A stretch of 64,000 nt of DNA. Origin: Bacteroidota bacterium (GTDB taxonomy: Bacteria > Bacteroidota > Ignavibacteria > Palsa-1295). Below the pieces are notes generated by a model. That model made no database searches and was not told the origin of the DNA. It saw nothing but the letters and a program-made list of their open reading frames with translations. A program made the position numbers and the translations under genes. Location of the stretch: contig JAFDZW010000002.1 of assembly GCA_018266755.1 (NCBI GenBank), positions 353,166 through 417,165 on the forward strand, in the 5' to 3' direction. Positions 15,743-52,518 of this stretch are shown here, one piece after another; the first letter of the stretch is position 1; each line of letters starts with the position of its first letter.

Positions 15743-15743
15743 C
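15701..15743 (+). repeat. left attachment-site repeat (within tRNA-Lys)
   Basis: This is the left copy of the 43-bp direct repeat. It runs from CTCTTAATCA of the anticodon loop to the C after the discriminator base. Flanking bases differ from the right copy on both sides (ACTGA before versus CATTTT; TACC after versus CCCC), so the identity block is sharply bounded. It is the crossover region used by the island integrase. Confidence 0.93.
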
Positions 15744-18160: not shown

Positions 18161-18167
18161 AGCAGAT

Positions 18168-20980: not shown

Positions 20981-21129
20981 TGATTTGCAGGGTAGGTCGT
21001 GTGTTTCTAAGCCAACTTCCGCGAGAGGGAGTATTGTTCCCCACGTTGGTGAGATCCCAAGTCTTGGGATTGTGACCCGTTTACTAGAGGTGAGCGTGCA
21101 CTTCGGCACTATAACTTTCCATAATCGCT

Positions 21130-23372: not shown

Positions 23373-25154
23373 CTATAGTTTTGTAGGAAGTTCTAGGGTT
23401 TCAGTGAAGCTATCCACGAATTCTGGCCGTTCATTCTTCAGTCTAGTAAATGTATCTAGATGAACACAGAGCGCAAATTCATGCCTGGCTCTGGTCACGG
23501 CGACGAACGCAACACGCCTCTCTTCGTTCAATGGATCGGTATCCCACCATTGGGTAGACGGACAATCCGTCTCCTTTCCTTTTGGTACGATCATGCACAC
23601 GCAATCAAATTCTGCACCTTTGACACCATGAACTGTTGAAGTCTTGAAAGACCCGTTGTGGATACTTGAACCCACTGAAGAAGACTTCCGCAGCCGGTTG
23701 CCGTTAGTGCTATCCTTCCTAAACTTCCCAGCGATTGTTTTTGCATCACAACCGTAATCCGCAAGTTGCGATGCAACCGTTTCCCTTATTCGCGAGAGCC
23801 AATCGTTCCATGTCTCGTCTCTGATAGTCGTCGACGATTCCAGGAGCACCGCATAAATGATCCTCTTCCACCTTTCAAGATTCACTCCTAACGAAGTCAA
23901 TCGCTCATCCGAGAAATGCTGAGGTTCGTTCGCGCCTATCTTGTTTGTGAACACCATTTGTCCAAGCAAATTTGAGATGATGCGACGGGCAGCTGCCGGG
24001 TCACCGGATCGAGATAGATCTACAGCAAGTTGAAGTTTTTTACCACCAGACGCACTACAAGGGTATTCAAGCGAAGCAAGGTTCTTAAATGACTTGAGTA
24101 TTGATGCCTTTCTTGCAAGAATAACCCTTTCCCTATCCGTCCATCGAGCAAGGAGGTAGGCTTCTAGGTCGGCCGTGAGAGTTTTGTCACTCTCATAACT
24201 GATGAGTAACGTGTGGCCAACTTGAGCTCCCTCCTTAGGAAGCACAGGATTGTCCGCACTAGAGAGGCATGATGCAACCGTGCATACACAGATCGAACAA
24301 CGTTGAGAGACCTGCATCGGTAAAACTTTTGCACCGTTGAGCTTACTCGTCTGCTCAAAGATCCGGGATGAAGCTCCCGTAAAGCCATATATAGCCTGGT
24401 CTGGATCACCAACCGCAATCACGCGAACTGGACAATCGCGAATGAGTTTGAGAAGTGCACGATACTGAAAATGGCCGGTATCTTGAAACTCGTCGACTAG
24501 GAGGACCGGGAAACGACGGGTGACAATGCTCGCGACTGCCGCCCGGTGACGTGCGAAGTTCAAGATGTAGGAGGCAAGATAATGGCTGTCGTCATATGTG
24601 ATCAAGCCACTCTTTCTCCAGATCGATTGCTTGGATCGAAGAGCGGCCGCATTGTCACGATCGCTCAACGCATGAAGTTGGTGCCAACGGTAACTGAGTT
24701 TAGTAGTATACCTCGGCTGATGTTCTGTTCCTCCGGTGGCGTTTGTTTGGAAAATGAATGCACGCTTCGACTTATCATCATCCAACGCAAGATCAGGTTT
24801 GTCGAGTAAATTCGCTACGTCGGCTGAAATCAACCGTGGGGTGGAGAAGGGGAAACCAGCTTCCTTCCAGAACGGCTTGATGATGAAACGGAGCAAGAAT
24901 GAATCGATGGTGCCGACGAAATGAGGATACGGCACAGCAAAACCCAATCGTTCCCTGATCGTCCGCTCCGCAACGTTCGTAAATGACAGCGCCGCGACCC
25001 CCTGTGTCGGACTCTGCCAATTCTTGATCTCCCGTGCAAGCAACTCGGCAAATACCTTTGTCTTGCCACTACCGGGACCCGCTTTGACGATTACGATCCT
25101 CTCATCACAGGCGAGGATCTCCTTCTGTTCATCCGTCCAAGTGATTTCGGTCAT
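23373..25154 (-). CDS. gajB: GajB: UvrD-like helicase of the Gabija defence system
   Basis: The 593-residue superfamily 1A helicase has motif Q/I (ITWTDEQKEILAC, IVKAGPGSGKTKVF), Ia (ALSFTNVAERTIRERL), II (LLVDEFQDTGHFQYRALL), III (IAVGDPDQAIYGFTGAS), V (TVHGVKGAEFDCVCMIVP) and VI (ERRVAFVAVTRARHEFAL). Its start overlaps the gajA stop by 4 bp. This pairing of an OLD-type nuclease and a UvrD-like protein defines Gabija, where GajB is thought to sense or amplify DNA-end signals and activate the GajA nuclease. It is about 100 residues longer than the well-studied Bacillus GajB. Confidence 0.92.
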   Translation of the reverse strand: MTEITWTDEQKEILACDERIVIVKAGPGSGKTKVFAELLAREIKNWQSPTQGVAALSFTNVAERTIRERLGFAVPYPHFVGTIDSFLLRFIIKPFWKEAGFPFSTPRLISADVANLLDKPDLALDDDKSKRAFIFQTNATGGTEHQPRYTTKLSYRWHQLHALSDRDNAAALRSKQSIWRKSGLITYDDSHYLASYILNFARHRAAVASIVTRRFPVLLVDEFQDTGHFQYRALLKLIRDCPVRVIAVGDPDQAIYGFTGASSRIFEQTSKLNGAKVLPMQVSQRCSICVCTVASCLSSADNPVLPKEGAQVGHTLLISYESDKTLTADLEAYLLARWTDRERVILARKASILKSFKNLASLEYPCSASGGKKLQLAVDLSRSGDPAAARRIISNLLGQMVFTNKIGANEPQHFSDERLTSLGVNLERWKRIIYAVLLESSTTIRDETWNDWLSRIRETVASQLADYGCDAKTIAGKFRKDSTNGNRLRKSSSVGSSIHNGSFKTSTVHGVKGAEFDCVCMIVPKGKETDCPSTQWWDTDPLNEERRVAFVAVTRARHEFALCVHLDTFTRLKNERPEFVDSFTETLELPTKL

Positions 25155-26962
25155 GCGTTCTTCGGCACTCTGTTTCCGACCACATGAGCAAATGCCTGAC
25201 TCAAGTACGTTGGCACCACAAATCTATTTTGGGCAACTGCGTACGTTCCCCCTTCGCTTCTAGTGGATAACATCTCGGCGAGCTCCTGCGCAAATACAGG
25301 TTTCCTAACATTTGGACTAGCTATGCAAATGCCTCGCCAGACTGCAAGAGTGCGTTCATGATCTGAGGGCAATGCGGTTATGATGTCAGTGGTGAGAGTT
25401 CTAGGCGATCCCACTTCATAACAGCGCTGCCAAGCAATCGTCATCACTTCGGGGTTGGTATTTCCTGCGTCTGCGATATCATACTCGAGTGTCACGGACG
25501 ACACGAAGAGTTTCAAGTACGCGTCAGCGCCGAACAGCTCGATCAAATTGGTTACTCGTGCACACTGTTCGAGTTTGTCACCAACCTTACGCGGCACTGC
25601 ATATTTCCATTGGTCTTTTTTTGAATCTTGAGCATAATCCACCGCTGGGTCGCCATCAGTAACCACTGCGACCGGAATCTGAATTCGTGTTTCGCCGAAC
25701 AGGCTGGCGAGCGTAGTGAAGTCGACACCACAAACGGACACGATCGCTATCGCGTGATGAAGAAGGTCTTGATTGCTTCGTTCAGCGAGGACTGGCAAGA
25801 GAATGGTCTCCGATTCTCCTTCGACAAAAATGATCCCCTTTGCAAACAACATGCTCGCACGAGTTACATCAAGCATGCGCTGAACTCGTCGTTCTTCACT
25901 TTTCGACAGAATCCCTTCGAATGAGAAAAACCGAACAGCGCCCTTGTTGTCCTTATATAGATACCGAATCTGGCTTGGCATGACGTGAGCTGCTATAGTC
26001 GGAGAGTGGGTGGTTATGATAACCTGGGGCTTTCGCTTGAATTGCGCCACGTCACGAAGGCCGTTCGACAGGAAGGACGCAAGAATTGTTTGTAGTTGTG
26101 GGTGAAGATGTGCCTCAGGTTCCTCCACCAAGAGAAGTGGATAGTCACCTTCCTGTGAAGAGCCAAGCTCCGCCAGTACGCATGCGATGTATAGCAGATT
26201 GTTGTAGCCAAGTCCGTTTGCTGAAAGCTCATGGGCCTCACTGTCCCCTATAAGAATCTTGAGGTTCCGTACGATCCTTTCGAACTCTGATTCTGACGTG
26301 GCCACCTCGGTCGACTGGCCCAAAGTCTTCCCCGTTGAGCCTGTAAGCGTGCTCTGGAGCAAATCCGATGTTCGCTTTACAAGCGGGTCCTTCTTAAGCT
26401 CCTGATTCGCCTTGCGAAATACTTCCACAATCGTTGCCTTTTCATCCTCCTTCGCCAAAAGCCCGAACAGGCTGGCTAGTCGATTGCGCGGGCCCGGACG
26501 CAACTCAGAAACCGAATCGCGAAGTGCATCAAGCGCAGTGACCTTTAGGGCCTGAAGGACATCCTCCGGTACAGTTCGTTCAGTATCAGGGTCTCTTCCT
26601 CCCCAACGGCGTCGAGTCCACTTATTAGTATCATTGCTGAATGACCACTCGAAATTGATCCGCGCAGTGGATGCTTCAGGGTGCTCAGCATCAAAATCAA
26701 GAATGTCGAGAAATGCGGCTCTTTCCGCTTCCGACTCCGGCTTGTACGTGAGGGCGATCTTAATCGTGGCATTTGAACCCATCGCGTACGGTAGATCATC
26801 CCTAGATGCCTGAAGACTTCCAAGCCCAATTTGAATCGCGTCGACGATATTGCTCTTGCCAATATTGTTCTCACCCACAATGACGTTCAACCCATGACTG
26901 AACGATAGAGCAAGGCTGGTGATGTTTCGGAAATTCTCGATCGATAATTGTTGAAGGTACAT
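25151..26962 (-). CDS. gajA: GajA: OLD-family ATPase/TOPRIM nuclease of the Gabija defence system
   Basis: The start at 26962 is chosen because MYLQQLSIENFRNITSLALSF is the normal SMC/OLD N-terminus; the frame is open to 27019. Walker A is GENNIGKSN, the ABC signature region is NGLGYNNLLYIACVLAEL, and Walker B is YPLLLVEEPEAHLHP with the His-loop ITTHSP. The C-terminal TOPRIM domain has FAKGIIFVEGESETILLPVLAE (catalytic Glu) and VAVVTDGDPAVDYA (DxD). GajA is a nucleotide-sensing, sequence-selective DNA nicking enzyme that degrades phage DNA when NTPs fall. The operon continues directly into gajB. Confidence 0.92.
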   Translation of the reverse strand: MYLQQLSIENFRNITSLALSFSHGLNVIVGENNIGKSNIVDAIQIGLGSLQASRDDLPYAMGSNATIKIALTYKPESEAERAAFLDILDFDAEHPEASTARINFEWSFSNDTNKWTRRRWGGRDPDTERTVPEDVLQALKVTALDALRDSVSELRPGPRNRLASLFGLLAKEDEKATIVEVFRKANQELKKDPLVKRTSDLLQSTLTGSTGKTLGQSTEVATSESEFERIVRNLKILIGDSEAHELSANGLGYNNLLYIACVLAELGSSQEGDYPLLLVEEPEAHLHPQLQTILASFLSNGLRDVAQFKRKPQVIITTHSPTIAAHVMPSQIRYLYKDNKGAVRFFSFEGILSKSEERRVQRMLDVTRASMLFAKGIIFVEGESETILLPVLAERSNQDLLHHAIAIVSVCGVDFTTLASLFGETRIQIPVAVVTDGDPAVDYAQDSKKDQWKYAVPRKVGDKLEQCARVTNLIELFGADAYLKLFVSSVTLEYDIADAGNTNPEVMTIAWQRCYEVGSPRTLTTDIITALPSDHERTLAVWRGICIASPNVRKPVFAQELAEMLSTRSEGGTYAVAQNRFVVPTYLSQAFAHVVGNRVPKNA

Positions 26963-27038
26963 TGGCGTATAGCGATCAATAGGACAAATATATGCAATCT
27001 CGGCTCGACGAAACAGCACTGTGCTGATTTACATGGGC

Positions 27039-28001: not shown

Positions 28002-28205
28002 CGGGATACTAATGGTTTATGAAGCACTGGGCCCTGTTATTCTACGTTCGGCCGCGTCATATGGTTCTTTGCATTCAGCGGTTCAATTAGTCACCGAACA
28101 GGGTTGGTATCCGGCTCGGCCGTAGCATCGCGACATTCGGGAACCCTGCAGGGGGTGCGAGGCGGTTATCTACTCCGCTACGGGATCATACAATATTACA
28201 ATACC

Positions 28206-29621
28206 ATGGGCACCCACAATTCCTCGCGTCAGCGCAACAGCAATTCCACCACAACTGGATACGTTACAATCAACCCGACTTCCGATCTCATCAAGTGCAC
28301 ACAGCCGTTCCGTGTCGAAGGTAGAACGACGTGGTATGTAAAGATCAGTGTTCGCTCTTCGCGCACGGAGAGATGGAGACATCTTAAGCGATCAACCGGT
28401 GTGCTGATCGGGTCAACAGCATCAAAAAAGGCTGCACGTATCGCCGCCATTCAAATGCTCGCGAACTTCCAAGTGGAACACGATCCCACTGCGTCTCGGA
28501 AATTGAGCACGTTCCTCGCCGCGTACATACAGGAATGCGAAGCCAGAAATCTTTCCAAACAATACCTCACGCAGGTGCGCGCCGCTGCAACTGCTCTCCT
28601 AAAGGCTATCGACGGGGGCACGTTACTGACGCATATCAAAGTATCGACGCTTCGCTCATTCTTCAATTCGGTAAGATCGGCCTCGGTCGCCCTATCGTAC
28701 TACCGTTGTCTTCACGCCGCGTTCGCTCGAGCGGTGGTTGACGGCGATCTGGATCACAATCCGTTCGTGCGTGCCGACAAACGCGCGCTTAAGGAACGTC
28801 TGAACCCACGGCCTCGCGGTATTATGAGACCGGAGCAGATCTTCGCAATCCATGCTGCGATGCCACGCGGGACATACCTGGACCGGCTATCGGCCTCTCT
28901 GATGCTCGTCCTATTCGGTGAGGGCGTGAGAAGATCTGAAGCATGCTTTCTAAAGGTAGAGGACTTCGACACCGGTACGATGCGCGTATCGATCCGACCG
29001 AAGCCTGAGTACCGCCTAAAGAACCGTGCTTCAGCGGCGACAATCCCACTCACCTCACCGGCGGAGCGTGCTTTTCGTGATCAGCTGCAGAACCGGGATC
29101 AGCATCCGAACGAGAGTGTGCGCACCTCGGCATGGTTGTTCTGCAACGAGCGTGGGGAACACTATCATCCCGATAGCATAACAAAGGCGGTGCTCAAACG
29201 AGTGCGATCCGTATGCGAAAGCCTTGGTCTCAAAATCGATGGTATGGATCTGCACTCGTTCCGCCACAGCACACCACAGAACCTTGTCGAAGGCGGCATC
29301 AATCCCGCCCTGGTGTCACGCATGATACGCCACAGCTCCTTGCAAACGACTCTGTCGACGTACCACAAGAACTCGGACAGTTCGGTGCCGATGGACCCGA
29401 TCATCGACCGCATGAGGACCTGGGATCTCCAACGCCTTCACATCAGCTCCTTGTTGCGGTTTGTTTTCGTAGAGGACGGGTCGTCATCTGAATTCATGAT
29501 CGAGGTGAAGAGCAACGTACGGAGGGCGAACGGCAATCGATCCATGCGGAGCCTTTACAGTCTACTGGGGTTCGACACCAGCTCTCCTCGAAGCGGCGGG
29601 TGGCCGCACGCGACGAACTAG
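28206..29621 (+). CDS. tyrosine recombinase/integrase, internal to the island
   Basis: The catalytic set is complete: the first Arg in GEGVRRSEACFL, Lys in YRLKNRASA, HxxR in LHSFRHSTPQ, second His in MIRHSSLQTTL, and nucleophile Tyr in STYHKNSD. The SAM-like core-binding domain precedes it (LSTFLAAYIQECEARNLSKQYL). The ATG at 28206 fits the homologous start of the integrase at 51.3-52.5 kb, with which it shares YVK(I/V)...RRHLK(R/K)STxVL, PRPRGI and DLHS(F/L)RHS. The two are clear paralogues. No attachment repeat is seen beside this copy. The protein has a C-terminal tail of about 65 residues beyond the usual end. Confidence 0.92.
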   Translation: MGTHNSSRQRNSNSTTTGYVTINPTSDLIKCTQPFRVEGRTTWYVKISVRSSRTERWRHLKRSTGVLIGSTASKKAARIAAIQMLANFQVEHDPTASRKLSTFLAAYIQECEARNLSKQYLTQVRAAATALLKAIDGGTLLTHIKVSTLRSFFNSVRSASVALSYYRCLHAAFARAVVDGDLDHNPFVRADKRALKERLNPRPRGIMRPEQIFAIHAAMPRGTYLDRLSASLMLVLFGEGVRRSEACFLKVEDFDTGTMRVSIRPKPEYRLKNRASAATIPLTSPAERAFRDQLQNRDQHPNESVRTSAWLFCNERGEHYHPDSITKAVLKRVRSVCESLGLKIDGMDLHSFRHSTPQNLVEGGINPALVSRMIRHSSLQTTLSTYHKNSDSSVPMDPIIDRMRTWDLQRLHISSLLRFVFVEDGSSSEFMIEVKSNVRRANGNRSMRSLYSLLGFDTSSPRSGGWPHATN

Positions 29622-38635: not shown

Positions 38636-39640
38636 CTAGCGACATTGATCGACCCAAGATGAAATCAGCAGTGGAATCACTAGTTGAGAGTACTTCCTTC
38701 GTGTATGCCATCCCCCAAGGTCGACATCTTGAAGATCCAACGCCGAATAGATACTAAAAATACGATTTCTGTACATATCGAAATAAGCGACCATCCCACT
38801 TGCAGTCATCCCGCAAGGGGCAAATAGGTTTGGATGATCGTTATCTATGTCCTTCTCCAAGTCCACAATGTCATCTAAGATAGCGATGAGTTCAGCAATC
38901 CTATACACCTTTCTCCACAAACTCTCGCCTAACTTGGGATCATAGTTCTTCTGGACCAAGAACCCGCCCTGGAGCATTATCAGAATTGGAAGCACCTTTC
39001 TTCGTAGCAGCAGGTAGGAGTTTCGTGATGAATTACGAGAGGCAAGATGGCTATCAAACATCTTGAGGCATAGGTTGCGAAGACAATCTGCCTGGCTATC
39101 GGAACGATGTTCCACTTGAAGTGATTGAACCATCGAAAGATATCTACTAACCATCACCCACCAGCAATAAGCGATCTTGTTAGCTTGCCTAGATTTTGGG
39201 ACCGCCAAATCATTTGAAGACAATATACTTCTAAGCGCATCCCTTGTTATGAGGTCATCCACCTTAAGATACTCTCTATCAACGAGAACATCGAATAGCG
39301 ATGTAATCAGATTCGCAATTCCACCTAATACGGCTACATACTCATGCCTTTCATTTGTAAGCTTAAGTGGGCCGATGAACGAGGACGACAGGTAATAACC
39401 TACGCCTGTTGTAATATAGATGGCATTTACAAAGTCTGGCCCAAACTCTTTTGACTCTTCCATTTCCCTCATGCCTGCGACTAAGTCCGGTAACTGAGAA
39501 GCAAATACGTCAGTGCCTGCGTGACGAGAAGCCTCGTAGAATTCAGAGACGGGAAGCGGCAGGTTCGTACCGCGAAGTGACTGTGCGACTTCGCGTCGAA
39601 GTTCACCAGCCAATTCAAGCATGAAATCCATTTCTTTCAT
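38636..39640 (-). CDS. class I isoprenoid-synthase-like protein
   Basis: The protein is all-helical, 334 residues from the ATG at 39640 (an upstream TTG at 39670 is possible). Two acidic clusters lie where class I trans-prenyltransferases and terpene synthases bind diphosphate-magnesium: FDVLVD at 116-121, and ELIAILDDIVDLEKDIDND at 249-267 with a DDxxD core at 256-260. The preceding FLVQKNYDPKLGESLWRKVYRIAEL is typical of the helix leading to the second motif. The first motif is DxxxD rather than DDxxD, so it is not an ordinary chain-elongating prenyl synthase. It lies 67 bp behind the DxDD toroid gene on the same strand; together they suggest a terpenoid-type pathway. The fold assignment is inference from motifs. 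Confidence 0.7.
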   Translation of the reverse strand: MKEMDFMLELAGELRREVAQSLRGTNLPLPVSEFYEASRHAGTDVFASQLPDLVAGMREMEESKEFGPDFVNAIYITTGVGYYLSSSFIGPLKLTNERHEYVAVLGGIANLITSLFDVLVDREYLKVDDLITRDALRSILSSNDLAVPKSRQANKIAYCWWVMVSRYLSMVQSLQVEHRSDSQADCLRNLCLKMFDSHLASRNSSRNSYLLLRRKVLPILIMLQGGFLVQKNYDPKLGESLWRKVYRIAELIAILDDIVDLEKDIDNDHPNLFAPCGMTASGMVAYFDMYRNRIFSIYSALDLQDVDLGGWHTRRKYSQLVIPLLISSWVDQCR

Positions 39641-39707
39641 GATGATCACTATACTAACCTTCTGATGCAATCTGACTTGTTAGCAATATACTCTCAGTCA
39701 GTAGAAG

Positions 39708-40610
39708 TCATTCCATATGATCATGCTTCAACATCTTACGTATGATCTGGAGTGTCGGGGCATGCCAGTGGATTTTTCTGTCCGAGCTACAAGATAGACT
39801 CCTAGAGGCTGAGAATCTCTTCCCCTCATCAATAGTTGACCAATCGGATTCAAGGAGCTCGTCCAAGACCCACTGCAATCGCTCAGCACCATATAAAACC
39901 GCCCGTTGAATTGCATAAACTAGTTCAATTGGATGGGAGTAGTAAGGAGCGATCTCTGCAAACTTGACTCCTTGATGCAGAAAACAATATGTTGCGGACT
40001 CCACGGATTCGCAAACTGTACGAAACAGAGCCGATCCCCTGAGCCCACACAGCGCCATCGCTGCTGCGGCATTGACGTTAACACATACATCAACTGGATT
40101 GTGTGGCAAATTCGCAGAGCTGACCAACCAAGTACGCAGAGCTCCCAATCGCACCCAATAACCGTCATCGTTGGAAAGACGACTCACTTCCAACTGTGGT
40201 ACGACTTTCTGGAAGAACACTGCCACCTCGCTGACACTCAGACGATTATGTTTGATAAGTGCAAGGTAGGCCAAGCAGGTATCATCAAGATCAGGAATAC
40301 GGCAATCAAAAATCTGATGCGAAATCTTCGGCGTTAGGTTTTTACTCGGGTAGAAACGAAACCAACCCGAGTTAGCCTCATCCATGCATTCCTCGACAAA
40401 ATCTAGAATTCTCGACAAGGTCCGCTTAAGACTCTCCGAGAAAACCAACTGATCACATGCACACTCGATGGCTACGAGACTAGATACTGCGCAGTTCAAA
40501 TCGGTGACCACCTGTCCCCCGTAACTCACCTCTGAGAGAATTCCCCCATATTCGGATTGACCCTTTCTTAGCTCTTCCAGAACGAGATCGCTACGATGTT
40601 TCAAAGACAT
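39708..40610 (-). CDS. class II terpene-cyclase/prenyltransferase-repeat-like protein with DxDD motif
   Basis: The protein is helical, 300 residues. IPDLDDTCLAYLAL (DxDD at 107-110) matches the catalytic acid motif of class II terpene cyclases, and the pattern (p)DLDDT...LaLl, VDVCVNVNAAAAMALCGL (172-190) and APYYSHPIELVYAIQRA (221-237) is that of a bacterial family of alpha/alpha-toroid proteins. At 300 residues it is short compared with squalene-hopene cyclases (about 630), so it may be a single domain. DxDD protonates an alkene or epoxide in known cyclases; its substrate here is unknown. It is followed closely by the class I-like gene and preceded by a DUF1360-like membrane protein. Confidence 0.72.
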   Translation of the reverse strand: MSLKHRSDLVLEELRKGQSEYGGILSEVSYGGQVVTDLNCAVSSLVAIECACDQLVFSESLKRTLSRILDFVEECMDEANSGWFRFYPSKNLTPKISHQIFDCRIPDLDDTCLAYLALIKHNRLSVSEVAVFFQKVVPQLEVSRLSNDDGYWVRLGALRTWLVSSANLPHNPVDVCVNVNAAAAMALCGLRGSALFRTVCESVESATYCFLHQGVKFAEIAPYYSHPIELVYAIQRAVLYGAERLQWVLDELLESDWSTIDEGKRFSASRSLSCSSDRKIHWHAPTLQIIRKMLKHDHME

Positions 40611-40821
40611 TCGATGTACAATTTAAGATATCCCAAGTTGAATTGCTCATTTGAACAATTGTCACTTGATTCGATGCCAATATGTTGTTAGTGCGAGTAT
40701 GACTAGTATTGCGATGCAGTCACAACATACTCAGCCACTACTCTAGAACAATACCCAACGCTTGGTTTAGTCGCCATTTTTAACGCAAGGAGCAACTATC
40801 CCTCAAATTTGCCGAAGGACC

Positions 40822-41121
40822 TCATAAGAGTTTTCCTATCAGCCTGTCTGTAAATATCGCCAGCGCCGACAGAGACAATGTCATCATTATGCCCTCTTCA
40901 ATTGTTGTTGCTCGACATATTGCAAACGGTATAGCAATCCAAATGCTCAAGCAATAGAAACAATCAAAGAGCTTTCCAAGCAAGGAATCACGAAGAGCCA
41001 TCCTGCCCTTCAATACCAAGTCAAATGGACCGTCTTCGGATGAAAGCAAGTGGCTTATGCGCCACACAGATAACACTGCCAAAAAGTACCAAAACATATC
41101 TTGGCGGAATGGACGAATCAC
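40822..41121 (-). CDS. DUF1360-like small membrane protein
   Basis: The 99-residue frame starts at GTG 41121; the ATG at 41097 is an alternative. It has FLAVLSVWRISHLLSSEDGPFDLV (the VxRxxxLLxxExGPF core), then RDSLLGKLFDCFYCLSIWIAIPFAI (the CxxC...W motif) and a last hydrophobic segment (MMTLSLSALAIFTDRLIGKL). This is the DUF1360 arrangement: three membrane helices with a conserved Cys pair. Function is unknown. It lies upstream of, and on the same strand as, the two terpenoid-like genes with a 211-bp gap. Confidence 0.78.
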   Translation of the reverse strand: MIRPFRQDMFWYFLAVLSVWRISHLLSSEDGPFDLVLKGRMALRDSLLGKLFDCFYCLSIWIAIPFAICRATTIEEGIMMTLSLSALAIFTDRLIGKLL

Positions 41122-41228: not shown

Positions 41229-41741
41229 ATGATCCGATTTGCAACCTTTTGGTGGCTTTTTCTTTCCATCGGGTTCACGATTCTCTACCAAGGTTGCACA
41301 CAAGAATATATGAAACAAACAAGAACAAATATGAACCAGATCGATAACCTTGTACTTCCGTCGAATTTGTTGCGCGTCGCACCCTCGGTCACTGAGTTCC
41401 AAGATGGGACTTGGTATGGGCAATATCGTGACATTGCTGATCACTTCGGTTCGATCGAGTTGAACTTGGCACGAAGAGACTCTTCCATCGAGGGCACTTT
41501 GACATTCAGCTTTCTCGATAGCACTGGAAGGAAAGTCTATGGCGGCAACGTAAGGGGACTGATTTCAAGGGATCTCATTAATTTTGAAATTGCAATGGGA
41601 GAGTCTTTCCCCGCTCTTAAGTTTCAAGGCAAGTGGGTTGTTACGTCAAATGGTCTACAGTCAATGTACGGATATGTAGCTAGCACCTCCAATCTACCTT
41701 TCTTTGGAGGAATTTGGTGTGTCTGGATTGAGTCGAAGTAG
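41229..41741 (+). CDS. exported lipoprotein-like protein, paralogue of the protein at 44.2-44.7 kb
   Basis: The 170-residue protein has a hydrophobic N-terminus MIRFATFWWLFLSIGFTILYQGC, with Cys23 as a possible lipid-attachment site (the lipobox is imperfect). The domain TWYGQYRDIADHFGSIELNLARRDSSIEGTLTFSFLDSTGRKVYGGNVRGLI...FFGGIWCVWIES looks like a small beta-barrel. The minus-strand protein at 44225-44704 has the same series (WxG, G-E/V, IxG, GxVxGxI, FFLGGSWIVW). The gene is divergent from the DUF1360/terpenoid-like operon. Confidence 0.65.
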   Translation: MIRFATFWWLFLSIGFTILYQGCTQEYMKQTRTNMNQIDNLVLPSNLLRVAPSVTEFQDGTWYGQYRDIADHFGSIELNLARRDSSIEGTLTFSFLDSTGRKVYGGNVRGLISRDLINFEIAMGESFPALKFQGKWVVTSNGLQSMYGYVASTSNLPFFGGIWCVWIESK

Positions 41742-42021: not shown

Positions 42022-42842
42022 TTAGGACAGCAAACAGGGTGTAGTTACATTGGGTCTGAGTACATATCATGCAGCCTGTTTGTATCGCATTGCGGCTGTC
42101 TGATAGTCGAACGACTGATGTAGCCGTTCGTGATAATAGAAGTCGATATACCAGCGGACTCCCTCGTCGAGGATCACCCGATAGTCCGCCGGCATCAGAT
42201 AGACGTGCTCATACTTGAGCGTCCTCCAGAAGCGTTCGATGAAGATGTTGTCGATCGCCCGACCCTTCGAGCCCATGCTGATGCGAACACTGCTCTGGCG
42301 CAAGAGCGGCGTGAAGCTCTCGATGGTAAACTGACAGCCCTGATCGGTATTGACGATCTCGGGTGCCCCGAACGTCTCGAACGCCTCTCGCATCTCTCGG
42401 CCGTCATCGTGTTCGAGATCCGATACCCGACGATATAGCGGCTGTGCTCGTCTATGATCGCCGCTATGCACAGGAACCCACGCCGCATCGGGATGCAGTT
42501 GATGTCCATCGACCACACATGTCCGCCCCTGGTGATCTCGAGCCCCTTCAGTTGGCCGATCCACGCGTAGAGTTTCTCGCTCTGATCCTCCGACGGCTTC
42601 TCCGACCCCGCACCACGCTCGAAGACCTGCGACAACCGTTCGGTCGCCTCCTTCTTCCACTGCGTGATCTGGTTCGGATGCAGTTCGTACCGACGCGCAA
42701 GATCTTCGATCGTCCGTCGCTCGCGCAACGGCTCCAAAACCACTTTCGCTTTGAATGCCGGACTGATCTTCCGGCGGGTGCCTTCTTCCATATCGGTACA
42801 AGTAGTAGACCCAATGAATCCCACCCTAACTACCTGTCCTAA
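42022..42842 (-). mobile_element. deleted IS3-family insertion sequence
   Basis: Terminal inverted repeats share TTAGGACAG at both tips (42022-42030, and reverse complement at 42834-42842), with partial agreement continuing inward (AGGGTG). The length of 821 bp is short of the usual 1.2-1.4 kb, because the middle of the transposase region is missing. Next to the right end is a 20-base G run. No obvious target duplication is seen. Confidence 0.75.
42067..42824 (-). pseudogene. IS3-family transposase, internally deleted and frameshifted
   Basis: The OrfA start is typical (RRKISPAFKAKVVLEPLRERRTIEDLARRYELHPNQITQWKKEATERLSQVFERG), the HTH of IS3/IS911 OrfA. After EKLYAWIGQLK it jumps straight to LEITRGGHVWSMDINCIPMRRGFLCIAAIIDEHSRYIVGYRISNTM, the rve/DDE core of OrfB, omitting the HTH_21 part. 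A second frame change near 42430 is needed to continue into EIVNTDQGCQFTIESF, GSKGRAIDNIFIERFWRTLKYEHVYL and FYYHERLHQSFDYQTAAMRY. It is inactive as read. Confidence 0.85.
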
Positions 42843-43070: not shown

Positions 43071-44129
43071 TTAGCAATTATAGTCTTGGCAGCTCATCCC
43101 TGGTCGAAACCCAAGCATTTGACTAGCAAAAGACCCCGAGTCAGTGAATGCACTTAGAATAGGACTATGATCCTTATCAAAATACTCGTGGCGTCTGTCC
43201 CAGCTTGGCCTACTCCCAAAAAGAGGATCGCTAGGGTCATCAGGATCAATGTGTACTTTTGTTACAACGTTCCCAGTTCGAAGATCCAGCGCGATACAAG
43301 TTCCCTTCAGCATCATGGGATCGTCGTAATAATGGTCTATATTGGCGCTATGACAAAGAGCGCAGATCAACTGATTACCCTTGTATGAACGAGGAGATAA
43401 CCCTGGGCTCAACTGACTGCCAAAACAAAACCAGGTAAGGAAATAGGCATCAATCTCGGACCCTCCACAAGCGTGAATTAGTTCATGGAATAGTACCTGA
43501 CAAAGCAAATCTAGGTTATCTCCAATGTTATCAAAATTCAGGTGAATATGTACCGTGTCACCAAGTGCGTACCCGTCCGTGTGCCCGTACTTGTTGGAAT
43601 CTGTCAAATCGCAATCGATTTCAATACGTCTATGCCAAATGTCGTGGTTCAGGAGACAATCAATTATTGTGTCGAGGCAATCATTGATACCTTGTAGGTT
43701 TGGCAGACAACTATGAAGTTCGGTGCATACACAGGTCCATGCCTCCCTTATCGCATTCTCTCGGGAAGGGTACGCCGGCGGACTGCCGCTACGACCGGAG
43801 CGACCAACTGGCCGTATGGGGTGACTGCAAGGCCAATCGTCTGCGGGAGGGTCAGGATGCCACACTGTACCAGATGAATGCGTGGACCCGTATGCGTATG
43901 GGTCACGATGAATATTGGTACAATCAGTCCCGGTATCCGAATGCGGCTTGGCATTTTTCTTCCATGAAAGGCGTGGATCGGGATCATTTATTTGGATCGG
44001 GGGACCGTTTGGAGGAGGAGGAGGAGGATTCATGGGAGGCGGGGGGGGCGGAATTTCCCCCAAGGGAACAGTCTGAATTTCCGAACTGGAGACCGCCATA
44101 CCTCCGGGCAACCGGTTAGGCGCATCCAT
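43071..44129 (-). CDS. HExxH zincin-like protein with proline-rich N-terminus
   Basis: The ATG at 44129 is chosen for the GGAGAG ribosome site upstream; the protein has 352 residues. It begins MDAPNRLPGGMAVSSSEIQTVPLGE, which has a double-glycine (LPGG) like a leader-peptide cleavage site, then a polyproline tract (PPPPPPMNPPPPPP). The middle is Cys-rich (CVCTELHSCLPNLQGINDCLDTIIDCLL). LCQVLFHELIHACGGSEIDAYFLTWF contains HELIH with a downstream Glu in SEIDAY, the zinc-peptidase arrangement. The C-terminus adds more Cys residues. Peptidase activity is inference; no known family is matched. It lies between the IS remnant and the exported paralogue. Confidence 0.72.
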   Translation of the reverse strand: MDAPNRLPGGMAVSSSEIQTVPLGEIPPPPPPMNPPPPPPNGPPIQINDPDPRLSWKKNAKPHSDTGTDCTNIHRDPYAYGSTHSSGTVWHPDPPADDWPCSHPIRPVGRSGRSGSPPAYPSRENAIREAWTCVCTELHSCLPNLQGINDCLDTIIDCLLNHDIWHRRIEIDCDLTDSNKYGHTDGYALGDTVHIHLNFDNIGDNLDLLCQVLFHELIHACGGSEIDAYFLTWFCFGSQLSPGLSPRSYKGNQLICALCHSANIDHYYDDPMMLKGTCIALDLRTGNVVTKVHIDPDDPSDPLFGSRPSWDRRHEYFDKDHSPILSAFTDSGSFASQMLGFRPGMSCQDYNC

Positions 44130-44224
44130 ATTTGTCTCTCCAAGCGAATAAACTCTGTCTTGCATTGGTCAAAGTAGCGAAAGTATCAACAAAGCTAGGA
44201 ATGATTCGGACAATCTTCAACTCC

Positions 44225-44704
44225 CTATCTACTACTCCATACGATCCAGCTTCCGCCCAAGAAGAATTTATGGAGACTATCCGCAAAGACTCCAAAAGCA
44301 CAAAGTGGCGATTCCGGAGTGCTATCGGTTAGAACTCCAGAGAAATGGATTATTGCACGAGATGAAGATTCTGTAGTGGCAAGTAAATCTACCCTCCCAG
44401 TCTCGATCTTGCCCTTTACCTCACCAAAAACGACCTCTTCACCAAAGTACGTTTTGGTTATTAACTTGAAAACGCCATCAAGGATAGTATCCGCACGATC
44501 AAAATAAAAATGAACTTCGCCCGTACTCTTCGAGGCGTCCATGAAGACACCCGTCCAATGTGCCTGATATGGTTGAACACCAATAATGGTTGAAGTCATA
44601 CTCTGAAGCTTGTTTAGATTCACTAGAGATTTCTGATCCACGGAAACACTATTCGAATCCACGAAACTACCAATCAAACTCAGAATCAGCCACCTCAACA
44701 ACAT
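44225..44704 (-). CDS. exported small beta-domain protein, paralogue of the protein at 41.2-41.7 kb
   Basis: The protein has 159 residues. MLLRWLILSLIGSFVDS is a probable signal peptide. HWTGVFMDASKSTGEVHFYFDRADTILDGVFKLI...VVFGEVKGKI...HFSGVLTD...CAFGVFADSLHKFFLGGSWIVWSSR follows the same strand pattern as the plus-strand protein at 41229-41741. The two frame the IS remnant and zincin gene, which suggests a local duplication. Function is unknown. Confidence 0.65.
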   Translation of the reverse strand: MLLRWLILSLIGSFVDSNSVSVDQKSLVNLNKLQSMTSTIIGVQPYQAHWTGVFMDASKSTGEVHFYFDRADTILDGVFKLITKTYFGEEVVFGEVKGKIETGRVDLLATTESSSRAIIHFSGVLTDSTPESPLCAFGVFADSLHKFFLGGSWIVWSSR

Positions 44705-45025: not shown

Positions 45026-45658
45026 CTAGCCCAGTTGAAACGGCTGGATGGAGATTGCCGGGCTGGAAACATCTACCACCGCAATCCACCTCATGTCAAA
45101 CATCGAATAATTCGTGCCCGATTTCGCCCACACTCCGATATTGAACGCACCTCCAAATCGAAGTGTAACGTAGAGATCGACAACACCGGTAAAACTCCCA
45201 GTCCAATCCACGACTGGAAACGTTCCTTGAGCATCTCCTCGTGTGGCAGCTGAATCAAGAAATCCCAATTGCACCTCGGTATATGTGGAGGCACCAAAGT
45301 CGAGCGATATCTTCATCTGCCATTTTGTCCCCGCCCTCAGGAACAGCACTTTACGCAGGGGGATAGCAGTGGAACTAGCTAGATTCGCTGTTAGATTTAG
45401 AAAATTCCATTGTGCAGCATCCGCTACATTTTGTAGATTATCTGTTCCAAGTGCTACGCACGTTGGACTCGACGACACCACAATTGGGCTAGCAATCCAT
45501 GTGCCAGGCGCTGCATAAGTTGAACTATTAGTAAGAGTACCTGTCGTGCCGCCTAAGGTTGCGTTGGCAACCAAATCTGAGATATTGACGGGGGTTGACT
45601 TCTGCAGCTCGTTCCAATTTGCTGCCGATGATGGAGCAAAACAACAATCACTAGCCAT
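45026..45658 (-). CDS. unknown beta-rich protein, paralogue of the protein at 46.7-47.7 kb
   Basis: The protein has 210 residues, with an AGGAAG ribosome site before the ATG. It starts MASDCCFAPSSAANWNELQKSTPVNISDLVANATLGGT and shares with the larger neighbour NWN(E/D), P(V/)DI...N, AQWNF...TANL, FLRAG.(K/R)WQM.I.L, TY(T/S).(V/L)QLGF, TRGD.QGT.PV and the aromatic C-terminal strands. There is no signal peptide. The common domain looks like a beta-sandwich. Function is unknown. Confidence 0.65.
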   Translation of the reverse strand: MASDCCFAPSSAANWNELQKSTPVNISDLVANATLGGTTGTLTNSSTYAAPGTWIASPIVVSSSPTCVALGTDNLQNVADAAQWNFLNLTANLASSTAIPLRKVLFLRAGTKWQMKISLDFGASTYTEVQLGFLDSAATRGDAQGTFPVVDWTGSFTGVVDLYVTLRFGGAFNIGVWAKSGTNYSMFDMRWIAVVDVSSPAISIQPFQLG

Positions 45659-46651: not shown

Positions 46652-47722
46652 CTATGGGACAATATTCCACACCGTCTCATACATATAGTAGTTTCCTCGT
46701 ACATCAATTGCACGCAGGCCCATCCGATATCTACCTTGACGCTTCAGCGTCAGAAACATTGTTGCCGGCCCCGTATAACCTCCGGTGGCGAATTCGATGA
46801 CTGGGATCGTCCCCTGACAATCTCCTCTTGTACCAGCATCAAATTGGAAACCTAACTGCAAATTCGAATACGTCAGAGTACCAAGGTTTAGGTCAATCGC
46901 CATCTGCCATCTAACTCCTGCTCGAAGAAAGATAGTATTTTCCAGAGGTAGAGGGTTGGAGGACTGCAGGTTTGCGGTGTCATGCGAAAATGTCCACTGT
47001 TGTGCATTGGCAACAGCCAGTTGATCATCAAGTCTCAGAGCCGTACATAGTGGGTCGCTATTCAGAGCAAATTGAGTGCCATTCCAGCCTCCAATATTAG
47101 CGCCTGGATACAAGATGGGATTGGAAGGTGACACTGAAACCTTGAAAGTAAAAGTGAAAGTCCCCCCGCTTGTTCCGTTCCCAGAAGGTAATTGGAGAGG
47201 ATCACCATCAAGGATTCTTGTCCCGCCTGCAAAAGTCACATGTGGCGGCCCTGCTGCACCTATGAGGGTAACACTGTACGTCCCAACCCCAAAGGGTACA
47301 AATGCCGTGAACCTCGCTACGTTCGCACTGGGAACGCTGACAGTTCCGGCGACGCCTGCCCCACCAGTGGTAACCGTAAAACTCGCAGTAGTGACACTTG
47401 CGGCGTCCACAGCACTACTAAATGTAATATCAATCACCTGAGGATTACCAGCCAGTGCCGTCTCAAGCGTAACGATATCTGTCGGCATGTTGGCTAACGT
47501 CTGTATCGGACCTAGACTTGATATCGAAACACCTGTTACCTGACCAATAGGAAGTACCCTTGAGGTAGGCGTTCGAAAGGTTGTGCTATTAACTCTTGAT
47601 CCCGTCTCAATCGGGTTCGTCCCCGCGATCATCTGACAGTTTGCTAGAATGTCAACCGGATCGACAGGTGCAAAATCTTGCCAATCATTCCAGTTTGCCA
47701 AACGCATCGGAGTGCAGTTCAT
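46652..47722 (-). CDS. unknown beta-rich protein with Ig-like insertion, paralogue of the protein at 45.0-45.7 kb
   Basis: The protein has 356 residues. The N-terminus (MNCTPMRLANWNDWQDFAPVDPVDILANCQMIAGT) and the last 140 residues (from LRLDDQLAVANAQQWTFSHDTANL to YMYETVWNIVP) match the 210-residue neighbour. Between them sits an extra Big/Ig-like module (IDITFSSAVDAASVTTASFTVTTGGAGVAGTVSV...YSVTLIGAAGP). It lacks a signal peptide. Function is unknown. Confidence 0.65.
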   Translation of the reverse strand: MNCTPMRLANWNDWQDFAPVDPVDILANCQMIAGTNPIETGSRVNSTTFRTPTSRVLPIGQVTGVSISSLGPIQTLANMPTDIVTLETALAGNPQVIDITFSSAVDAASVTTASFTVTTGGAGVAGTVSVPSANVARFTAFVPFGVGTYSVTLIGAAGPPHVTFAGGTRILDGDPLQLPSGNGTSGGTFTFTFKVSVSPSNPILYPGANIGGWNGTQFALNSDPLCTALRLDDQLAVANAQQWTFSHDTANLQSSNPLPLENTIFLRAGVRWQMAIDLNLGTLTYSNLQLGFQFDAGTRGDCQGTIPVIEFATGGYTGPATMFLTLKRQGRYRMGLRAIDVRGNYYMYETVWNIVP

Positions 47723-47796: not shown

Positions 47797-50700
47797 CTAA
47801 TGATCATCCACAAGCATGGTAGACAAATATCTACTCCCATTGCGGACCAGCAAAAGGTAAACACCTCGGAATAATGGCCGTTCGAGGTTAAGGACGAATC
47901 CGTTACTCATAACATCCGCCCTTGCTGTACCAGAATCAAAGACACACCGTCCCAACAGATCGAATAACTGGCATGAGACCTCGACCGGACTCTCGAAGGA
48001 ACCCCTTACGAACAGATGTACTCCATCCGTGAAGGCAGTGATAACCGACGCCGGACTCTTCGAATCCGACCCGACGGATGAAGAACCGCTGAACGAGCCG
48101 GACAATATTCCAAAGCTGGAATCAACTGTATTTCCCCCGCCCTCGATCTGGAACGCAGCACCGATAGATCCATTACGCATGGCAAACCGTGCAGGATACG
48201 GCTTGGTCACGTCGGGTTTGAACGTGATATCGTACCAAACACTGTCGTTCGCGCTGAGACTGAATGCAGAAGATACCGGATGCTGCGAATTCGTTATCAA
48301 GAAGTCCGACGCATCTACCCCGCCGATAATGACAGACGGGACGGTCACAGAATGGCTCGCATCATGATTGACAAGATACACCCGCAAGGTTTGCTCGGGC
48401 GATGCCAACGTGGAGTCAACGGAGAACGCGATGACACCGGGCGAGAATCTGCAAGAGCCTCCGAATCCGGGCGCAAGCAGAGAAGTGGTGCTCTTCGATA
48501 GCGACTGAAGCTCGGTCGTCGAAGCCATGTTCGTTACCCAATGCACGATCGCAGAGTGTGCGTTACGATCATACGGTGAGTAACAGAGTGTTGCACTTAC
48601 TGCTGCTCCCGGAGGAATCGTCAGAGGAAACGCAGCTTCAGATGATGCCGCAAGATGAAAATTCGCTGTATCTCCCGTAACGGCCGCTGAAGACACAACC
48701 AGTGGCAATGTCCCGACATTTCTCAGCAATACAGTATCGCAACTGACATGACCGGAATCAGTAGCATCGAAGGTGATATCGCTCGCCTTGAGAATCGGCG
48801 AGAGGCCCTTCCCCCGGAGCACGTAGTCGAAGGATCGGCCGCAATCGGAATAGACCCGTAGCGTGGCAGTCGAGGTTACCGTGTCCAACGCATGATAGCA
48901 GACCGGAATGTTGAGGGCACCACCTGTTGGCAAAGAGATGGGGAATGTCCCGACCGATCCATTCACCGTGAACCGACCAAGCGCCCCCACGATTCGCAAA
49001 GAGTCAATGCGTACGCTGACTCCAGCGGTCGTTGTGGCATTCGATACCTTGACGATCCCGCATACCTCGGAATCAATAGAATGGGCCCCAAACGTGAACG
49101 ACTGTGCCGAGAGTTGAGCGAGCGAGCCGGTCGCACTCGCGCTCACGGCTGTCGTAGCGGAAAGGGTGAACGTCTTCGACGCGCCGGAATTGTCATAGAC
49201 TCGTACGACAGCGGTAGCTGAGTCCGCCGGGTTGACGATCGACACGCTGAAGCAATACTCGGCATCGCTACCCGGGAGCAGTATCTCCCCTTTCCCAAGC
49301 GGATCCCGAGTTGGGTCGATCTGTACATTCCTCGAGATAGGTAATGGGCTTGTATACGTATTGTCCGGATAGTTGACCAGTTCGATGTAGCGGATCCCGG
49401 AATTCGTCGAGCCTGTGCCATGCACACAGATATCCCATACTCCACAGTTATTCGTGATCGTCGCCCCAAGCTTCGAGCCGCTCACCCCGAACTGACCATA
49501 CTGCATGCCGAGTGGATTCGCAAATTCAAACGGTACATCCGGGTAGATCGGCTGTGCTCCTGGCCAGGCATTCCCCTCTACAACCGGGGATTGGATCGCC
49601 GCGCCGAAGGTTGAATGTCGTGAAGGGTCTGCGGCCGGTGCAACATCCGTCAAGCGGAAGGTGCCGGAACCGTTAACAACGAGCAAGACCCCAACAAGTG
49701 CAGAATCCCCGGGAATAGTATTCCACGTTCGTTTAACGCCGAATCCTGCGCTCGTTAATGATGAGGCAGGTGCACCAGCATGACTGACAAGAATCTTCTG
49801 CCCGTTCCAATCGCTTCGAGGAGCCGTAATCAGCAGGTACATCGAACGAGTGTTGTTCTTTGAGGAAGGGTTGCTAAAATAGTATTCACTCTTCCATCGT
49901 GAACGTGGGATGATCGAAAGCATACTCGGCGCCGGGTTCGGCGGCCGCACCGCCTGCATGCTCTGGTCGTATTGCATCACACCAAACGGCTTGCCGTTCA
50001 CATCCTTCAGACCGAGTGCTACGGTGGTGGAGGGGAGATTTACAGAACTATAAGACGGTGTCGGCTGGGCCGTCGAGCTGCTCCCGTTCTGGATCAGCAC
50101 CGAATTGCCATTCCCTGGTAGACCGACGATCCGAATCTCGTCGCCTGTTCCAGGATCCCCCGAAGCGCTGCCTTCGTAGAAGGGCAACGTAACGTAGCCG
50201 GTACTGTCCCAGGCTTCAACCGGGATGATTTGCTCAATTACGTAATCACGCGCATCGTCAAAAGTCAGTTCATCCGCGCCATCGGTAGGAAATGCATTTT
50301 CATGACCACTTAACACACCGATCGGCTTATTCGCGGTGAGGAGTGTACCGGTAAGATCGAAGCTCGGGTCAGCCCCGCCGCTATATACCGTGTAGAACTG
50401 ACCGCGATTTAGCGTGACGGTAAATGGCTGAGGCTTGCCGTTCCCACCGGTTCCGCTGATCGCCCCGGGATGCCCGCCTGCCGTGGTCGTGGAAGGTGTG
50501 ATCGTAACTTCAGTACCATTCTCGGCAGCACTGACTTGAAAGAACCCTCTCGATGCGAACTGATTGATCATCCCGCCGCTTCCGTTCGGGTTGTCCAGGT
50601 AACTCTGAACCACATACCGCTTTCCCCAACAGGACACCGGAAGTGCAAGATAGGAACCACCGGTACATGCGCCGGTGCTGAGCATACTTACCGTGATCGG

Positions 50701-51084
50701 TGCTCGCGAAACGATATGTAATGTCCCATAGTGAACGGCTTCGCCATTCACGTATGAGTTACCAATTGCGCTGAGGTCAGGTGAGTAACTGGTCGTTGTT
50801 CCGGCCTTGATCGTCAGGGTACTTCCGTTCACAGCATTACCGCTTTCGTCAAAATAGGATACGTCCACGGAGTTATCGACCCCGCTGGTAATGAGTACGG
50901 CGACAGTGATCTGTGGAGTAAAACTGACCTGCACGCCTTGCTGACGCATGATCGACGGAGTAACGAACCCAAGAAAGTACTCGCGGCCATCGCTGGAGAT
51001 ACCGCCCTGTGCTTTCAATTGTGAGATTGCGCAAGATAAGAAGACGATGCCAAAAATCAGCAAACATAGCTTTCGCTTATTCAT
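47797..51084 (-). CDS. T9SS-secreted IgGFc-binding-like cell-surface protein
   Basis: From the ATG at 51084 the protein has 1095 residues and starts MNKRKLCLLIFGIVFLSCAISQLKA, a signal peptide. The first 450 residues have the IgGFc-binding N-terminal-like pattern: DGREYFLGFVTPS, GTTTSYSPDL, VHYGTLHIVSRAPITVSMLSTG, SYLALPVSCWGKRYVVQSYLD, GQFYTVYSGGADPSFDLTGTLLTANKPIGVLSGHENAFP. Several Ig/CHU_C-like beta-sandwich modules follow. The C-terminus ends in a T9SS type A domain (VSCQLFDLLGRCVFDSG, RGVYLLLVRNGSRYLSTMLV). It is inside the island, so the element carries cargo that uses the host secretion machine. Confidence 0.85.
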   Translation of the reverse strand: MNKRKLCLLIFGIVFLSCAISQLKAQGGISSDGREYFLGFVTPSIMRQQGVQVSFTPQITVAVLITSGVDNSVDVSYFDESGNAVNGSTLTIKAGTTTSYSPDLSAIGNSYVNGEAVHYGTLHIVSRAPITVSMLSTGACTGGSYLALPVSCWGKRYVVQSYLDNPNGSGGMINQFASRGFFQVSAAENGTEVTITPSTTTAGGHPGAISGTGGNGKPQPFTVTLNRGQFYTVYSGGADPSFDLTGTLLTANKPIGVLSGHENAFPTDGADELTFDDARDYVIEQIIPVEAWDSTGYVTLPFYEGSASGDPGTGDEIRIVGLPGNGNSVLIQNGSSSTAQPTPSYSSVNLPSTTVALGLKDVNGKPFGVMQYDQSMQAVRPPNPAPSMLSIIPRSRWKSEYYFSNPSSKNNTRSMYLLITAPRSDWNGQKILVSHAGAPASSLTSAGFGVKRTWNTIPGDSALVGVLLVVNGSGTFRLTDVAPAADPSRHSTFGAAIQSPVVEGNAWPGAQPIYPDVPFEFANPLGMQYGQFGVSGSKLGATITNNCGVWDICVHGTGSTNSGIRYIELVNYPDNTYTSPLPISRNVQIDPTRDPLGKGEILLPGSDAEYCFSVSIVNPADSATAVVRVYDNSGASKTFTLSATTAVSASATGSLAQLSAQSFTFGAHSIDSEVCGIVKVSNATTTAGVSVRIDSLRIVGALGRFTVNGSVGTFPISLPTGGALNIPVCYHALDTVTSTATLRVYSDCGRSFDYVLRGKGLSPILKASDITFDATDSGHVSCDTVLLRNVGTLPLVVSSAAVTGDTANFHLAASSEAAFPLTIPPGAAVSATLCYSPYDRNAHSAIVHWVTNMASTTELQSLSKSTTSLLAPGFGGSCRFSPGVIAFSVDSTLASPEQTLRVYLVNHDASHSVTVPSVIIGGVDASDFLITNSQHPVSSAFSLSANDSVWYDITFKPDVTKPYPARFAMRNGSIGAAFQIEGGGNTVDSSFGILSGSFSGSSSVGSDSKSPASVITAFTDGVHLFVRGSFESPVEVSCQLFDLLGRCVFDSGTARADVMSNGFVLNLERPLFRGVYLLLVRNGSRYLSTMLVDDH

Positions 51085-51281
51085 GATACAGGCGACTATG
51101 AAATGACCGAATACCGTTTGTGGGTACAAGAATTTAATTCCAGAACGCCATAGATTAGTTCCATATCGTACACAAATATTGAAGATACCTACCCTCTTGA
51201 CAGGTATTTGTAGGACTCCTCAGTGATCAATCCGGTGTTTGCGCCGTCAAGTAAGGTTCTTTTTGTCGGAGCTCTGTCGTG

Positions 51282-52505
51282 CTAAACGTATACTCCAATT
51301 GACCTCGTCAGCTTCTCGATCTGGTCAAACCCGCTCGTTGAGTCCCGCATCTTATGGTACGCACTCAATGTCGTACTAAGGTTAGCGTGTCGCGCAAATT
51401 TGGCCACCACCACCGGATCGGTTCCGCTGTCGATCAAGTGTTGGATCATCGAGTGACGGAGTGAGTGTAGGTCAAACCCGTCCGTCCTGATCCCAAGCGA
51501 TCGTGCAGCTAGCTTTACACGCCGAATAACCTGCTTTGTCAGAGAATCGGGGTAGTAATGGAAGCCTAATCGGTTGCAGAAAATGTACTCCGATTCCCGG
51601 ACCTCCTCCTTCGAATGTAGTCTCTTCAACTTGAGCTGAGACTCGATTGCCGTCCGGGCAAGCGAAGTCATCAGAATCGCTCCCTCACTCGCCGCATTCT
51701 TCAGTCGGTGCACTTCACTCGGCCGGATGATAATCGTTGAAGCAGCAAGATCGACGTCCCTGGTGGTCAAGTAGCATGCTTCCCCGCGTCTAAGAGCGCC
51801 ACCAAATAGTAGCAGGAAGTAGTTTGCGAACGTCGCATCGCAGAACTCTGTCTTCGGCATCGTTTCGTAGATCGCCATGACATCCTTAGGACTCAGGATG
51901 CCTCGCGGTCTCGGCTTGAACCTCTTCTTGAGTAGATGCTTGTCGATCTGATCGAAGGGGTTTGCGCCGATCAACCCGTCCCGCACCGCACGAGCGAATG
52001 CTGCATGAAGATAGCGATAGTTGATCACTGCCATAGCTGGGTTCTTGAGATACTTAAACACGAAGCTGCGAACGTCTGTCACGGAGAGGTCCTGCAGCAG
52101 TCTCCCCTTCCCGGAGTATTTGACGAATTCGGCAAACGCCCGCGTTATCCCTGAGATCGAAGAACGGCTAAGATGCTCCGCTTCCCTCTCTGCAATGTAG
52201 TGCTTCCCAAAATCTCTCAATGTTAATGGCGCACCAGGATCGTGGTTCTCGTTGAAATCGGCGAGAATACGAAGCCGTGCTTGGTGTGCCTTGCTCAGGG
52301 CATTTGGAGCAGTAACAAGTACTTCAGTGGACTTCTTGAGATGGCGTCGCTGCCCTGTTCTAGGATCAGTGAGCGTCACTTTGACATAGTAGCAGGAGCG
52401 CCCAGAGGCAACGAACGGATTACCGACAGAGATATGCTGAGACATGAGTTGTTTGGATCTGGAAAACTCATTCGAACCACCCAACGACCCGCGCTCTCGA
52501 TCCAT
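51282..52505 (-). CDS. int: tyrosine recombinase/integrase of the tRNA-Lys island
   Basis: The catalytic residues are all present: Arg in GGALRRGEAC, Lys in HRLKNAASEG, HxxR in LHSLRHSMIQHL, second His in FARHANLSTTL and Tyr in SAYHKMRD. A core-binding domain (LRDFGKHYIAEREAEHLSRSSISGITRAFAEFV) precedes them. The start is uncertain: ATG 52505, or ATG 52445, which matches the shorter N-terminus of its internal paralogue. It lies 150 bp from the right attachment repeat and reads inward, the normal arrangement, so this is the enzyme that integrates the island at tRNA-Lys. Confidence 0.93.
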   Translation of the reverse strand: MDRERGSLGGSNEFSRSKQLMSQHISVGNPFVASGRSCYYVKVTLTDPRTGQRRHLKKSTEVLVTAPNALSKAHQARLRILADFNENHDPGAPLTLRDFGKHYIAEREAEHLSRSSISGITRAFAEFVKYSGKGRLLQDLSVTDVRSFVFKYLKNPAMAVINYRYLHAAFARAVRDGLIGANPFDQIDKHLLKKRFKPRPRGILSPKDVMAIYETMPKTEFCDATFANYFLLLFGGALRRGEACYLTTRDVDLAASTIIIRPSEVHRLKNAASEGAILMTSLARTAIESQLKLKRLHSKEEVRESEYIFCNRLGFHYYPDSLTKQVIRRVKLAARSLGIRTDGFDLHSLRHSMIQHLIDSGTDPVVVAKFARHANLSTTLSAYHKMRDSTSGFDQIEKLTRSIGVYV

Positions 52506-52518
52506 CAACGATGTTCAA

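Follow-up and report, generated by a model that had tools for sequence, protein, structure and literature searches.

A pair of adjacent genes in the 64,000-nucleotide stretch of bacterial DNA analysed here (the window) encodes a protein that sequence comparison identifies as genuine kin of the class II terpene-cyclase beta domain (protein B) and a probable class I isoprenoid-synthase-like protein (protein A). The group of genes around them looks like an undescribed biosynthetic module. On balance, we favour the reading in which B and A form an accessory terpenoid biosynthetic pair on an island that was acquired horizontally. The firmest claim of the analysis is that B has class II chemistry, an activity predicted from its homology and its residues.

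Organisation of the locus

The three adjacent minus-strand open reading frames predicted at 38636-41121 were recovered in the window by an ORF check with the same coordinates, and the DLDD motif was found at residues 107-110 of a 300-aa protein, as had been announced (Table 1). Protein A measures 344 aa from a TTG start and 334 aa from the ATG at 39640; the latter start gives the numbering D256/D257/D260 of the original prediction. The end of B and the start of A are separated by 37 bp on the same strand, and promoter-like or terminator-like matches at B/A are no more frequent than in shuffles. For protein C, comparison with homologues makes the ATG at 41097 the probable true start. Its assignment to DUF1360, already proposed for this small membrane protein, was confirmed above the Pfam cut-off (27 bits against 21, E=4.7e-6). 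Proteins A and B have no family match in Pfam, NCBIfam, PADLOC or PHROGs and, as single queries, gave no significant match to solved structures.

Table 1. Position and main characteristics of the features considered in the window
Feature	Position	Strand	Description
tRNA-Lys	15670-15743		Beside Qat and Gabija
Qat (QatABCD)	16029-21109		Complete-looking
Gabija (GajA, GajB)	23373-27019		
Tyrosine recombinase	28104-29621		43% identical to the other tyrosine recombinase; the two bracket the A/B/C region
Protein A	38636-39670	minus	Probable class I isoprenoid-synthase-like protein; D127xxxD131; DDIVDLEKD 266-274, then HPN 279-281
Protein B	39708-40610	minus	300 aa, homologue of the class II terpene-cyclase beta domain, standalone; DLDDT 107-111, N180, Y224, F86-Y87
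Protein C	40822-41121	minus	99 aa, DUF1360 small membrane protein, CFYC motif
Lipocalin-like lipoprotein	41229-41741	plus	Lipobox-like YQGC; homologous to three G100-locus proteins
IS integrase core (rve_3)	42067-42801	minus	Breaks up the conserved gene set
Cys-rich, Pro-rich protein	43071-44165	minus	HELIH, metallopeptidase-like; homologous to L009:4987-5664 (z=6.7)
Second lipocalin-like protein	44225-44704	minus	Homologous to L009:5687-6088 (z=10.7)
Tyrosine recombinase	51282-52508		See first tyrosine recombinase

The IS integrase differs from its surroundings in GC content (0.574 vs 0.43-0.49). The name "lipocalin-like" is a label drawn from a sequence pattern only, and a PDB profile search did not confirm the fold of these proteins. 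Further along the window, 45026-45658 and 46652-47722 encode two paralogues that match no Pfam family (44% identity across 142 aa) and are located beside an AraC-type regulator, and 47797-51129 encodes a 1110-aa protein with an IgGFc-binding domain.

Protein B and class II terpene cyclases

Comparison of the eight-sequence profile A4 with 177,635 PDB sequences retrieved AsDMS (E=2.8e-7) and an AsDMS mutant (E=5.8e-6). The four-sequence profile A3 has only three matches in the whole PDB, all of them class II cyclases: AsDMS (E=0.067), ent-copalyl diphosphate synthase (0.69) and the AsDMS mutant (0.86). None of the three is significant singly, and the Asp motif is in register in all of them. The class II-cyclase reading of the DLDD protein is thus upheld both by homology to AsDMS and by the register of the catalytic residues. 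The DxDDT motif is invariant across the four closest sequences, that is, B and three homologues of 18-29% identity. The conservation of D107, D109 and D110, proposed earlier as a check, was found for D107 and D109 in all eight homologues of profile A4, together with Y224, and for D110 in the four closest sequences; N180 is kept in these four and in one further relative (L014).

Considering AsDMS numbered as in PMC12365925 (PDB chain number + 10), residues D107, D109, Y224, Y87 and F86 of B, all invariant in A3, map to D331, D333, Y427, Y319 and F318. D331, D333 and Y427 are required, since their mutants are inactive; Y319 is inactive as Ala, and F318 was also reported (PMC12365925). N180 aligns with AsDMS N388, which would, by its spacing, be the counterpart of AstC N324, an essential residue (PMC13244436). 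No conserved Arg is present in B at the site aligned with AsDMS R378, the diphosphate-binding Arg, and B carries no fused HAD phosphatase, its 300 aa comprising the beta domain only. The preservation of every residue of the catalytic network at 18-29% identity points to catalysis in B and its closest relatives. AlphaFold (AF2), run from the single sequence with no alignment, returned an all-helical and unreliable model of B (pLDDT 37), with which a fold search gave no significant match.

Relatives of B and their loci

Relatives of B were found on the Azospirillum lipoferum plasmid AZO_p5 (E=3e-8) and on a Calothrix plasmid, the latter weak in the first search and then confirmed pairwise. A profile built from B and these two plasmid relatives led to a fourth member in genome G391 (6.6e-12) and to a more distant group of relatives, confirmed by the four-sequence profile. 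A is not located near the B homologues at these other loci. In a group of relatives (L012, L013 and L016), the motif is changed to DxDC and N180 to His, substitutions which suggest a chemistry altered or lost. Another relative, encoded by L014:1165-2745, is a 526-aa protein that carries DADDT, has a hydrophobic stretch at its N-terminus and shows no apparent HAD domain.

On both the Azospirillum and the Calothrix plasmids, an aromatic-prenyltransferase-like gene adjoins the B relative, and the only two plasmid records carrying this gene also carry a B relative. The resemblance is weak in both comparisons, with E=0.018 for the Calothrix gene against TIGR03429 and E=0.95 for the best PDB match of the two-sequence profile, tryptophan dimethylallyltransferase. 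On the A. lipoferum plasmid (L007:1234-9038), MakA-like alpha-pore-forming-toxin genes lie upstream of both the prenyltransferase-like gene and the B homologue. The tail of this B frame has been altered by an insertion, as residues about 286-361 match Tn3 transposon ends. In both plasmids, conserved proteins of 750-775 aa without known domains (L007:4754-7006 and L008:4568-6895) are encoded upstream of the cyclase-like gene and its prenyltransferase-like neighbour.

Protein A as a probable class I-type protein

A single homologue of A was detected, in a genome of the same family (G100; E=1.7e-10, about 21-22% identity), and wider searches in the class and the phylum gave no further one. Comparing the two sequences, D127, D131, D266, D267, D270 and D274 of A are all kept, including the three residues singled out in the original prediction (D256/D257/D260, that is, D266/D267/D270 in the 344-aa numbering). 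Residues 253-281 form the most conserved 29-residue stretch (14/29 identical vs a median of 6), and the conservation of the Asp motifs between the two proteins exceeds chance, as does that of DxDDT among B and its homologues.

At E<=10, the G100 homologue has one match in the PDB, a class I sesquiterpene synthase (presilphiperfolan-8-beta-ol synthase, E=0.81); DDAVDIEED of the homologue is in register with the NSE motif of this enzyme. Profile comparison of A by hhalign was significant neither with SQS nor with IPPS, although the second motif aligned with trans-prenyl synthases over 97 columns; no known class I family is significantly matched by A. AF2 prediction from the single sequence, with no alignment, gave an all-helical, unreliable model (pLDDT 39), and the fold search for A gave 38 insignificant matches, the few isoprenoid-synthase chains in this set not being counted as evidence. 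Given the divergence of the pair and a sole PDB match at E=0.81, class I is only probable for A. The class I-type motifs claimed at first are retained in the G100 homologue, but their attribution to a class I family is not significant.

Several candidates were rejected. DUF2600 (PF10776) has no match in A or in its homologue at thresholds up to E=10, and the homologue scores below the cut-off for DUF5685, over the second motif only. The weak matches of the A searches at L004-L006 are short stretches, and the frames there correspond to other proteins.

A larger conserved unit

At the G100 locus, the genes for DUF1360, for a small Cys protein and for three lipocalin-like proteins lie on the same strand as those for a Cys-rich HExxH protein, for A and for an FAD oxidase. 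Scored against shuffles, the window and G100 protein pairs reached z=31 for DUF1360, up to 20.7 for the lipocalin-like proteins, 20.7 for A and 6.7 for HExxH. As DUF1360, A, lipocalin-like and HExxH proteins are shared with a second genome, the conserved unit is larger than the three predicted genes and extends over about 38.6-44.7 kb. In G100, A overlaps by 8 bp the FAD oxidase, which is related to berberine-bridge and cannabinoid oxidases and occupies the place of B; the B query has no match in this assembly (67% complete). Since B is missing at the G100 locus, the two proteins do not form an obligate pair.

DUF1360 was found in 5 of the 197 relatives, and full-length homologues of A in two, both among those five, with A and DUF1360 within 3 kb of each other. 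The association of three families in one system consequently stands for DUF1360 and A, together at one locus in two genomes, but not for B, which lies outside the conserved unit in G100. That this unit, with B or with the FAD oxidase, is an undescribed envelope system through which a secreted protein or peptide receives a cyclised isoprenoid seems improbable to us. The other DUF1360 genes in the class adjoin other proteins without known domains; near 9.4-11.1 kb of L029 and L030, in two related genomes, DUF1360 lies beside a conserved 435-aa protein with no NCBIfam match.

Genomic context

The sampled island genes have a GC content of 0.43-0.50 vs 0.54-0.56 for core genes, and the two tyrosine recombinases may mark the island boundaries. 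The genes were originally placed inside a defence island: Qat and Gabija are present in the window, but the A/B/C genes begin 11.6 kb past Gabija, beyond a tyrosine recombinase. The statement that other terpenoid genes are lacking agrees with our scan of the neighbouring genes. Elsewhere in the genome, two polyprenyl synthases and two squalene/phytoene synthases are encoded, and squalene-hopene cyclase has no match.

At the few loci considered around the homologues of A and B, neither annotation nor inspection by eye showed a recognised defence gene, and ten proteins of these loci did not match PADLOC models. The G100 locus, inspected by eye, sits among housekeeping genes (e.g. panC- and glmU-like). 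When single proteins were used as queries, GTDB contigs and viral contigs gave no homologue, and neither A nor B was found in phage records.

Proposed pathway and alternatives

In the accessory terpenoid pathway that we favour, D109 of B, set up by D107, N180 and Y224, would drive ring closure of a polyprenyl chain by protonating its terminal double bond. A would be a metal-dependent class I-type enzyme in which two Asp-rich helices hold the diphosphate; most likely, it would act either ahead of B, attaching the prenyl chain to an acceptor, or after B, ionising the product of B. We lean towards A acting first and B second, because the diphosphate-holding Arg of AsDMS is not conserved in B and because the B relatives in Azospirillum and Calothrix adjoin an aromatic-prenyltransferase-like gene. 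The latter arrangement suggests the order known from MstE, prenylation followed by cyclisation. The polyprenyl synthases encoded in the genome speak for this pathway. Against it, A has a single homologue and no significant class I match, B is missing from the G100 locus, and no precursor-supply or tailoring gene adjoins B/A in the window. The DUF1360, lipocalin-like and HExxH proteins, conserved neighbours of A, would probably work at the cell envelope, where they would handle or anchor the product or its carrier, or process it, a role deduced from membrane and lipoprotein features only.

It is possible, though we doubt it, that only A belongs to the DUF1360/lipocalin-like/HExxH unit, B being the product of an unrelated cyclase gene inserted there by chance, and that the two serve separate pathways. 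G100 carries the unit and A without B (with the B query unmatched in its 67% complete assembly), and B homologues occur elsewhere without A nearby. Against this, only 37 bp separate the two genes, which share a strand, promoter- and terminator-like matches are at shuffle level, and both products look terpene-type; moreover, A has a different tailoring-type partner in G100, the FAD oxidase, as expected if the partner varies.

A non-enzymatic function, in which B and A keep a terpene-enzyme fold but use it to bind a prenyl lipid, either as sensors or in envelope protein assembly, would suit their envelope-type neighbours and the drift of the B family from the canonical site seen in L012, L013 and L016 (DxDC, N180 changed to His). 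We hold it to be unlikely in view of the catalytic network fully kept in B and its closest relatives at 18-29% identity. Finally, the pair was initially thought to yield a membrane-active terpenoid, here upon infection, as an anti-phage defence. Qat and Gabija share the window and the low, island-like GC spans them, but islands gather unrelated cargo, the homologous loci examined contain no recognised defence gene and no PADLOC match, and a literature search joining anti-phage defence with terpenoids found no paper. The absence of recognised defence genes around the homologues leaves the defence reading unsupported; as few loci were sampled, this makes such a role less likely and no more than that. 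Overall, we regard it as very improbable. The biosynthetic pair remains our preferred reading.

Significance

Very few class II cyclases are known in which the beta domain stands alone. According to one proposal, AsDMS-type enzymes arose when HAD and beta proteins, originally separate, became fused (PMC9128629); the B family, present in at least three bacterial phyla, represents beta proteins of this separate kind. The scanned Pfam and NCBIfam models miss this family, so genome mining relying on them would overlook B-type proteins. A, if confirmed, would add another divergent family of class I type.

Comparison with known systems

Labdane-type systems pair adjacent genes for class II-type and class I-type cyclases, a layout similar to that of B and A. 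Their usual class II partner has two or three domains, whereas B is far shorter, and A is without a terpene-synthase family match. The tetraprenyl-beta-curcumene synthase YtpB (DUF2600) has two Asp-rich motifs of a type similar to those of A, but the PF10776 model fails to match A or its homologue at E<=10.

The HAD-TCbeta drimenol/albicanol synthases, AsDMS of Aquimarina spongiae and the fungal AstC, possess a beta domain significantly homologous to B, with an Asp/Asp/Asn/Tyr protonation network in register with that of B. AsDMS combines a HAD phosphatase with DxDTT, whereas B has DxDDT and no HAD, and the diphosphate-binding R378 of AsDMS has no conserved counterpart in B. The short cyclase was described as unusual; it is, but a precedent exists in the merosterolic acid synthase MstE, a monodomain class II cyclase whose substrate is a prenylated aromatic acid (PMC9401909). 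Unlike AsDMS, MstE is absent from the A3 and A4 profile matches, and the likeness seen between it and B is one of layout: both consist of a single beta domain alone, with class II chemistry, predicted in the case of B.
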